64,000 bases of DNA from a bacterium (GTDB lineage: Bacteria > Desulfobacterota > Desulfocorpusculales > Desulfocorpusculum), in assembly GCA_037481695.1 (NCBI GenBank), contig JBBFLE010000016.1:1-64000 (forward strand), given 5' to 3'. This document shows, piece by piece, positions 61,850-63,441 of the stretch; the stretch's first letter is position 1; each line of letters begins with the position of its first letter. The notes beneath the pieces were generated by a model that made no database searches, was not told where the DNA came from, and worked only from the letters and a program-made list of their open reading frames with translations. The position numbers and the translations under genes are program-made.

Positions 61850-62068
61850 CTATTTCTCTAGGAGAATTTTATATCCCTGGCCTGTATCTTCCTCCTTAGA
61901 GACCCTCCATCCTTCCATGGAGGCAGCCCTTGCCACATTCTCTCGACTGGTCTCAGTGTCTACCAGGACCTCAATGGTACCCTGTCTCATTTCCTTGAGG
62001 CTCTGAATGACCATTAGCACAGGTTGTGGGCAAGACAAACCCCTGGCATCTACGGTCTTGTCAGCCAT
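61850..62068 (-). CDS. TusA-like sulfur/selenium carrier protein
   Basis: The 72-residue protein has the TusA signature TVDARGLSCPQPVLMVIQSL with the catalytic CPxP cysteine at about residue 13, and the SRENVARAASMEGWRVS second half. It matches the N-terminal TusA-like domain of YedF without the C-terminal DsrE-like part. Next to yedE it probably carries persulfide or perselenide sulfur in selenium metabolism. gagaggaggtg precedes the ATG at 62068; the longer frame to 62122 overlaps yedE. Confidence 0.88.
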   Translation of the reverse strand: MADKTVDARGLSCPQPVLMVIQSLKEMRQGTIEVLVDTETSRENVARAASMEGWRVSKEEDTGQGYKILLEK

Positions 62069-62082
62069 TTCATCACCTCCTC

Positions 62083-63168
62083 TCAGACTCTTTTCAAGTT
62101 GGTAAAACCAATGAAAAGACACATGGCAAGAGCCAAAGCCACAGCCACAGCACCGTTAGGACCTATGCCCTGGGGACTGCTGGCCAGGCCAAAGTTATGA
62201 GCCATGGCTGCTCCCACTATCATCCCCAGCACGAAGATCCCGGCATCATTGTCTCCCTCTCCTGCCATAAAAAGCTGTCTGCCCGGGCAACCCCCTGCCA
62301 GAGCAAAAGCCAGGCCTGCCACCAGCATGCCAGCGAAGTTCCAAAGGTGCTGGGAATGCGCCACAGGCTGCTTTTCAAAACCTGGATGGAACTGGCCCAG
62401 GACTAGATTTACAATCCATGCCACCACTAACAGGGCGATCATTCCCGAAAAAAGGTGCACTTGACGAAATAAAAGCAGATCTCGAATCCCGCCCATGGTG
62501 CAAAAACGGCTTCTTTGAGCCAGTATTCCGATCAAAAGCCCAGCACCAAGGGAAATCAAAAGTGGAGCTTTGGCAGCCCCAGGTCCTTGAAGGCTGTAAA
62601 AGAGGATTCCACTCGAGGGCTGGCCCTCAACTGGCGGATATATCAGCCTGAGAGCCAAAAGCCCTGCCATCACGATGGGAATCATGAGGCCCACAGAGGT
62701 GCTCTGCCCGTGGCTTCGACCGAGGGAATAGCCCCCCTTGAAAAAAAGAGTCCCTATCCATATGCCGGTACCCAGTCCCACCAAGCCCAAGATGGCATTA
62801 CCATCTCCGCCTGCAAGCCTAAGAAGAGCCCTCCAGGGACAACCCAGAAAAACAAGAGCGCCCACCATGGCGCAAACACCTAGAAGAAACCTGGCCACCG
62901 GGGCCGAGCCCCCCCTGGGCTTGAATTCTTTAAAGACTAGGGCAGAGAGGAAAGCTCCCAAGACAAAGCCCATTATCTCGGGTCTCAAATACTGGACTAC
63001 CGCGGCCCTGTGAAGACCTATGGCGCCTGCTATGTCCCTTTCCATGCAGGCCACACAGATGCCCATGTTGGGAGGATTCCCCATCTTCTGAAGCAAGGGA
63101 GCCATCAGGCCTATGGCAGCCCCTACCGCCACAATCCCCCAACGCGTAGAGAATATATTGCCCCTCAT
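62083..63168 (-). CDS. yedE: YedE family selenium-metabolism membrane transporter
   Basis: The 361-residue membrane protein has the YedE/YeeE pattern: a repeated half with conserved cysteines (NMGICVACMERDIAGAIGLH near residue 35, FLGCPWRALLRLAGGDGNAI near residue 112, SRFCTMGGIRDLLLFRQ near 225 and AGGCPGRQLFMAGEGDND near 300). YedE proteins of this length are the proposed selenium transporters found with TusA/YedF genes; YeeE homologues import thiosulfate. gaaaggagg precedes the ATG at 63168. It lies 14 bases upstream of the TusA-like gene. Confidence 0.88.
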   Translation of the reverse strand: MRGNIFSTRWGIVAVGAAIGLMAPLLQKMGNPPNMGICVACMERDIAGAIGLHRAAVVQYLRPEIMGFVLGAFLSALVFKEFKPRGGSAPVARFLLGVCAMVGALVFLGCPWRALLRLAGGDGNAILGLVGLGTGIWIGTLFFKGGYSLGRSHGQSTSVGLMIPIVMAGLLALRLIYPPVEGQPSSGILFYSLQGPGAAKAPLLISLGAGLLIGILAQRSRFCTMGGIRDLLLFRQVHLFSGMIALLVVAWIVNLVLGQFHPGFEKQPVAHSQHLWNFAGMLVAGLAFALAGGCPGRQLFMAGEGDNDAGIFVLGMIVGAAMAHNFGLASSPQGIGPNGAVAVALALAMCLFIGFTNLKRV

Positions 63169-63267
63169 CTCTGTGCCTCCTTTCCCCAAACACCAATCGG
63201 CATACAATTTTAGATGGGCTATCCCATGCTCTTAGGGGTTCCAAAATGGCCGAAACATTCCTGGGCT

Positions 63268-63292
63268 AAAAAAAATCGGGACTTGCGAGTCC
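63268..63292 (-). terminator. rho-independent terminator after the tRNA gene
   Basis: On the minus strand ggact and agtcc form a stem with a four-base loop, followed by ccga and eight T residues. It stands 56 bases after the tRNA 3' end and 100 bases before yedE, so the tRNA appears to be a separate transcription unit. Confidence 0.75.
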
Positions 63293-63347
63293 AACTCAAG
63301 GCTCAGCTATATGGGTTATGACCAAGCAAACCGTCTAAATATCCCTA

Positions 63348-63441
63348 AGGCCGGCCTGCGAGTCGAACGCAGCAGGATGGTTGTTAGCCATCCCCATACG
63401 GGTTTGCAGCCCGCGGGGAGCCCCGGCTCCCTTCACCGGCC
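63348..63441 (-). tRNA. selenocysteine-tRNA-like tRNA with GCA (Cys) anticodon
   Basis: The minus strand folds as follows. The acceptor is GGCCGGT/GCCGGCC, extendable by an A-U pair. The D arm has a 6-bp stem (GGGAGC/GCTCCC) with a four-base loop. The anticodon stem is 5 bp (GCGGG/CCCGT) with loop CTGCAAA, anticodon GCA at 63405-63407. The long variable arm is GGATGG/CCATCC, and the T arm is CTGCG-TTCGACT-CGCAG. The long D stem, tetraloop and long variable arm are those of tRNA-Sec, whose loop would be CTTCAAA; only the first anticodon base differs. The discriminator is T (U73), the base CysRS needs, not the G73 of tRNA-Sec. CCA is not encoded. Decoding of UGC/UGU by cysteine is the simplest reading. 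Confidence 0.8.

Follow-up and report, generated by a model that had tools for sequence, protein, structure and literature searches.

The window (the whole analysed stretch of DNA, 64,000 nucleotides, contig C16 of the 4.1-Mb genome G000, reported as 100% complete) carries on its minus strand a tRNA gene that combines a selenocysteine-type body with cysteine identity elements. Its cloverleaf is conserved among relatives, it is placed co-directionally with a selenium operon, and a complete Sec set is encoded alongside it in the genome. The tRNA belongs with the published selC* tRNA-Cys / tRNA-ReC (Mukai 2017; Vargas-Rodriguez 2018), as a variant. It probably serves as a Cys fallback for UGA, charged by CysRS, delivered by SelB and expressed together with the selenium genes, a reading to which we assign a probability of roughly 55%.

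A selenocysteine-type tRNA with cysteine identity elements

The gene reads GGCCGGUGAAGGGAGCCGGGGCUCCCCGCGGGCUGCAAACCCGUAUGGGGAUGGCUAACAACCAUCCUGCUGCGUUCGACUCGCAGGCCGGCCU (94 nt) from 63441 to 63348 on the minus strand. Together with the elements that follow it, the annotated features are:

63348..63441, minus strand: selC*/ReC-like tRNA-Cys, 94 nt, 3' CCA not encoded (ARAGORN, Rfam RF01852, fold, covariation in nine relatives)
63405..63407, minus strand: anticodon GCA (sequence and ARAGORN position 35)
63348..63348, minus strand: discriminator U73 (sequence; G73 in the canonical selC of G000)
63268..63292, minus strand: terminator-like hairpin GGACU-CGCA-AGUCC (63292-63279), then a U run (consensus scan)
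62083..63207, minus strand: yedE, putative selenium transporter (TIGR04112 seleno_YedE, 478.6 bits, cut-off 200)
61850..62122, minus strand: small TusA-like sulfurtransferase, 90 aa, equivalent to the YedF N-terminal domain (TIGR03527, TusA)

The tRNA-Cys(gca) at 63348-63441 is the sole tRNA call by ARAGORN in the window, and the sole Rfam match at the locus is tRNA-Sec (RF01852; 50 bits, cut-off 47, E 4.5e-7). An earlier note, made from the letters alone, had proposed a 94-nt minus-strand Sec-like tRNA with GCA and U73, and this is confirmed by both programs and by the fold; the covariance model that it suggested as a check matches over its full length. In the minimum free energy structure (-49.4 kcal/mol, z -2.9) the acceptor has 7 bp, the D stem 6 bp and a tetraloop, the anticodon stem 5 bp, the variable stem 7 bp and the T stem 5 bp. 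U73 and GCA confer Cys identity, and tRNA-Sec carries G73; the sequence thus bears out the proposed placement of Cys identity elements on a Sec-type body. Likewise, the anticodon loop, CUGCAAA, differs from the Sec loop, CUUCAAA, at position 34 only, as had been claimed. The accompanying statement that these features are all typical of tRNA-Sec holds for the D stem, the tetraloop and the variable arm, but not for the acceptor/T branch, which is 7/5 with G8 unpaired rather than 8/5.

Relative to canonical tRNA-Sec (selC, RF01852), the window tRNA retains the body, i.e. the 6-bp D stem, the tetraloop, the long variable arm and a 7-nt anticodon loop (Rfam, fold), whereas UCA and G73 are absent, GCA and U73 standing in their place, and the branch has 12 rather than 13 layers. 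The short class I variable loop of canonical tRNA-Cys is also absent, this position being occupied by the 7-bp variable stem. The Sec-like elongated body is shared with allo-tRNAs, from which the window tRNA differs by its 7/5 branch and Cys identity, in contrast to the 8/4 or 9/3 branch and Ser or Ala identity of that class.

The host genome belongs to the same family as G001 (Desulfarculaceae bacterium JdFR-97) and G002 (Thermodesulfobacteriota RSWS15). All four genes that the earlier note had named for checking are present in G000: a canonical selC (C18:30896-30988, anticodon tca, G73, 74.6 bits), selA on C3, one selB on C20, and a normal tRNA-Cys (GCA) on C12, which adjoins tRNA-Gly. Three CysRS-type genes are encoded in addition, the canonical CysRS being located on C14. 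With the full Sec set, a normal tRNA-Cys and CysRS in the same genome, the window tRNA is thus additional to both systems.

These observations bear on whether the tRNA could be a Sec tRNA with a Cys anticodon, on which SerRS and SelA would make Sec-tRNA for UGC/UGU. Such a GCA-type tRNA-Sec has been published for Aeromonas salmonicida, with Sec inserted at UGC/UGU codons (PMC11415595); it shares with the window tRNA a Sec-type body and a Cys anticodon, and SerRS uses the long variable arm as an identity element. However, the window tRNA departs from the Aeromonas type in its Cys discriminator and in the separate UCA selC of its host. U73 instead of G73 is found in all members of the lineage described below, a canonical UCA selC in 11/11 of their genomes, and the branch of the window tRNA is 7/5. 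Sec insertion, which the earlier note had entertained, is therefore most improbable.

Two lineages and the acceptor/T junction

Published selC* tRNA-Cys have a Sec-like shape, U73 and a GCA or UCA anticodon, and occur in Firmicutes, Thermodesulfobacteria, Nitrospirae and Proteobacteria, including deltaproteobacteria (PMC7609411), in agreement with the earlier note. What the review calls their 'most striking feature' is that the branch is modified to 8/4 and A51a is left unpaired. In Syntrophobacterales and Desulfobacterales the tRNA is followed by a second SelB, and in the latter order also by a second CysRS (PMC7609411). The window tRNA resembles them in its Sec body, long variable arm, GCA, U73 and canonical selC alongside, and in a host among anaerobes including deltaproteobacteria. 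Conversely, it is 7/5, with neither the 8/4 branch nor the A51a bulge, and is adjoined by yedE and the TusA-like gene instead of SelB* or CysRS*.

Of 395 genomes in the phylum, 28 carry a match to a strict core pattern, where a reversed control pattern gave 0 matches; in the phylum to which the Clostridia member belongs, there are 6 carriers in 398 genomes. A further pattern scan added Acidobacteriota, Planctomycetota, UASB270 and Syntrophaceae members; a wider search of Planctomycetota returned only the seed genome (1/343). The patterns required the anticodon arm, so that other variants are missed and the invariance of this arm, being partly forced, is not used as evidence.

The Sec-like tRNA-Cys sequences split into two groups. 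In the classic group the acceptors are mostly of GGGGGC or GGAGGG type and many members have a bulged T stem; among the desulfobacterial carriers found by pattern, 17/22 have a SelB gene within 1.4 kb. The second group, which includes the window tRNA, combines a GGCCGG-type acceptor with a GGGAGC D stem and spans 11 genomes from several phyla. No SelB was found within 8 kb at any of its 11 loci (0/11) in the flanking sequence examined. A lineage living without Sec decoding was nevertheless ruled out, given canonical selC in 11/11 and selA in 10/11 of the genomes; selB scored over the cut-off in 10/11. This co-occurrence is weak evidence of function, since SelB is common in Planctomycetota anyway (83/119, ~70%). 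In the exception, G403 (Bacterium UASB270), selA, selC and selD were found with no SelB over the cut-off and none around selA or selC, which may reflect a gap or a divergent gene. In a separate observation, G039 (Desulfofervidaceae, one 2.54-Mb contig, apparently complete) has selC and selB with no SelA match to TIGR00474, and in G404 two distinct Sec-like tRNA-Cys genes of GGCCGG type are separated by 6 kb (C14:19389 and 25653; L113).

Across relatives, cloverleaf pairing is preserved in 95.1% of cells, with changes on both sides in 11 pairs. The observed pairing was matched in 0/500 shuffles, and slid structures gave 36-56% of cells and 1-5 pairs. The changes in these 11 pairs are compensatory, and selection on the cloverleaf is thus real while the acceptor/T register drifts. 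This has consequences for the suggestion that the window gene is a decaying selC-like pseudogene. It does have one 3' acceptor-side nucleotide fewer than its 8/5 relatives and does not encode the 3' CCA, but its stems are intact, pairing is preserved at 97% identity to G002 and 81% to G001, and the D and anticodon arms are unchanged; decay is accordingly very unlikely.

The junction itself varies within the GGCCGG lineage. In 9/11 members 12 nt lie between the T loop and the discriminator; G039 and G089 have 13 and form a clean 8/5 branch (13 layers), like tRNA-Sec, on the same body. In the window, G002, G001 and G401 the branch is 7/5, with 49:65 paired and position 8 unpaired; for the window tRNA the 49:65 pair probability is 0.99 and the branch has 12 layers. 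In G178, G404 and G399, 49:65 cannot pair and 8:65 could, with a mismatch at 7:66, and in G406 and G403 either register is allowed. The A51a bulge is absent throughout the lineage.

SelB recognises its tRNA mainly through a long acceptor, which also serves as an EF-Tu antideterminant (PMC7609411), and the 7-bp acceptor is consequently the main argument against delivery by SelB. The chief rival to the SelB reading builds on it: a selenium-operon Cys isoacceptor delivered by EF-Tu, in which the 7/5 shortening freed the subfamily from SelB and which reads UGC/UGU, perhaps upon selenium-gene induction. The 7/5, 12-layer, bulge-free branch of G000, G001, G002 and G401, the lack of a nearby SelB* and the match of GCA to UGC/UGU are consistent with this model. 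However, a normal tRNA-Cys is present, leaving no obvious need for another; conservation extends to the Sec-type D arm, the tetraloop and the long variable arm; and G039 and G089, with the same body, keep the 13-layer 8/5 branch. We regard the EF-Tu isoacceptor as possible and clearly less probable than the SelB-delivered fallback. The related and somewhat more tentative proposition is that the GGCCGG lineage as such has left SelB, and that its 7/5 members are EF-Tu substrates constituting a selenium-controlled Cys tRNA that has a task of its own in decoding or metabolism and is no fallback for UGA. In favour of SelB delivery, the G8 of canonical selC cannot pair in G000 or in G001 either, so that the host SelB may not need eight acceptor pairs.

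Selenium gene neighbourhoods

The order 3' of the window tRNA on the minus strand is hairpin, yedE and the TusA/YedF-N gene. The earlier identification of yedE and a TusA-like gene was upheld (TIGR04112, 479 bits for YedE). The listed yedE start is TTG, with a downstream ATG at the MRGNIF start, and the 90-aa TusA-like protein matches TIGR03527 at positions 1-66 of 194 (52 bits) and TusA (35 bits), both below the cut-offs. Of the terminator that the note had attributed to the tRNA, a hairpin with a U run was indeed found, but it is weak, with a fold z of -1.0 and ~1.3 such sites expected by chance in the stretch.

The families recurring around Sec-like tRNA-Cys genes are YedE, TusA/YedF, the Se/S carrier PF11823, an SclA-like cysteine desulfurase and SelD, further recurring neighbours being an acyl-CoA dehydratase activase and a double-cubane reductase. 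Zhang et al. (PMC5322559) have linked these neighbour families with the use of selenium, and the selenium cluster given there, YedE, YedF, DUF3343, Sec lyase, activase and HgdB-like, is made up of the same families that surround these tRNAs. With SelB left out, selenium genes lie within 5 kb at 7/11 GGCCGG loci and 11/29 classic loci, compared with 0/7 normal tRNA-Cys and 0/11 canonical selC control loci. For 7/11 vs 0/18 the Fisher p is 2e-4, a value to be taken as indicative, the genomes being related and the family set having been chosen after seeing the loci. The selenium link drawn by the earlier note is thereby reinforced. In all annotated clusters (11/11) the tRNA and the selenium genes have the same orientation, and the tRNA and the selenium uptake/selenophosphate genes likely form transcription units across phyla. 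The literature search found no paper pairing tRNA-Cys with YedE, Mukai 2017 and Vargas-Rodriguez 2018 being outside its coverage. As far as the comparison reaches, the GGCCGG lineage without adjoining SelB, the 7/5 fold and the selenium-cluster placement go beyond the descriptions of selC* in reviews; primary lists may include them.

Such placement could also reflect a non-decoding or regulatory function. The tRNA would then serve the selenium operon as its leader or as a processing element, or act in selenium metabolism as a sensor or a carrier of Cys. The co-directional position within selenium operons, the tRNA-to-yedE distance of 92-140 nt in G002 and G000 and the weak terminator between tRNA and yedE would fit such a role. 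A cis-regulator should nonetheless hold one position, and the tRNA is found before yedE in the window, G002 and G400, after yedE in G405, between SclA and yedF in G403 and two bases after the activase in G001; moreover, the anticodon loop is preserved. We therefore consider a regulatory function improbable.

The slot just after the activase is occupied by classic tRNAs with SelB* in G046, G330 and G100 and by GGCCGG tRNAs without SelB* in G001 and G002. That both lineages use this slot argues that their tRNAs are the same gene, accompanied by SelB* in one lineage but not in the other. Separately, a double-cubane-cluster reductase and its activase often adjoin these tRNAs in both lineages (L041:3663-4958, L121, L154, L159, L169), and the Sec-like tRNA-Cys of G403 sits inside a yedE-tusA-SclA-yedF-selD run.

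A proposed cysteine supply at UGA and the CysRS-type genes

In the preferred reading, the SelB-delivered fallback, CysRS would charge the window tRNA with Cys through U73 and GCA, and the single genomic SelB would carry the Cys-tRNA to Sec UGA codons followed by SECIS, supplying Cys when selenium is short. Between GCA and UGA, a wobble mispair would be tolerated and held by SelB and SECIS; both the notion of such codon-anticodon mispairing and the name tRNA-ReC reportedly stem from Vargas-Rodriguez in 2018. Such a supply would explain why the tRNA travels with yedE, tusA/yedF, the Se/S carrier, SclA and selD, and co-expression with selenium transport and activation genes fits Cys incorporation at UGA under selenium scarcity. 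There is a tested precedent in Desulfotomaculum nigrificans, where a tRNA-Cys(GCA) of tRNA-Sec shape supplies Cys at Sec UGA via SelB and not EF-Tu (PMC11415595); the Sec set, the selenium neighbours and the shared activase slot point in the same direction. Apart from the short acceptor, the absence of a second SelB, the weak SelB co-occurrence and G403 without a detected SelB count against this reading. Cys insertion at UGC/UGU, which the earlier note had put forward, is not the best reading in view of the published function of such tRNAs, which is to place Cys at Sec UGA codons by way of SelB (PMC11415595), and is plausible for the window tRNA only because of its 7/5 branch.

The selenium-operon link lends support to the view that selenoproteins are kept functional by a swap to Cys once selenium runs out. 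In addition, the natural 8/5, 8/4-plus-bulge and 7/5 forms offer a ready test of what SelB and EF-Tu measure on a tRNA.

A dedicated CysRS* for the window tRNA was considered and rejected, as no CysRS gene adjoins the tRNA; the two extra CysRS-type genes of G000 were discarded as candidates because they are fusions encoded at other sites, and their distribution over the phyla does not follow that of the tRNA. The first of these (G000:C1:594025-595398; L143:6005-8191) is a 728-aa CysRS paralogue with a C-terminal glycosyltransferase-2 domain, in which no DALR or anticodon-binding domain was detected. The other (G000:C14:59995-61365; L145:3075-5390) is a CysM-type cysteine synthase fused to a full CysRS, 770 aa, which stands beside the separate canonical CysRS and has counterparts at L148:3941-6262 and L147:1988-4318. 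Among the genomes searched, open reading frames of comparable length that match CysRS are present in other Desulfobacterota and not in the four genomes of other phyla; the CysM-CysRS fusion could pass newly made Cys directly to tRNA.
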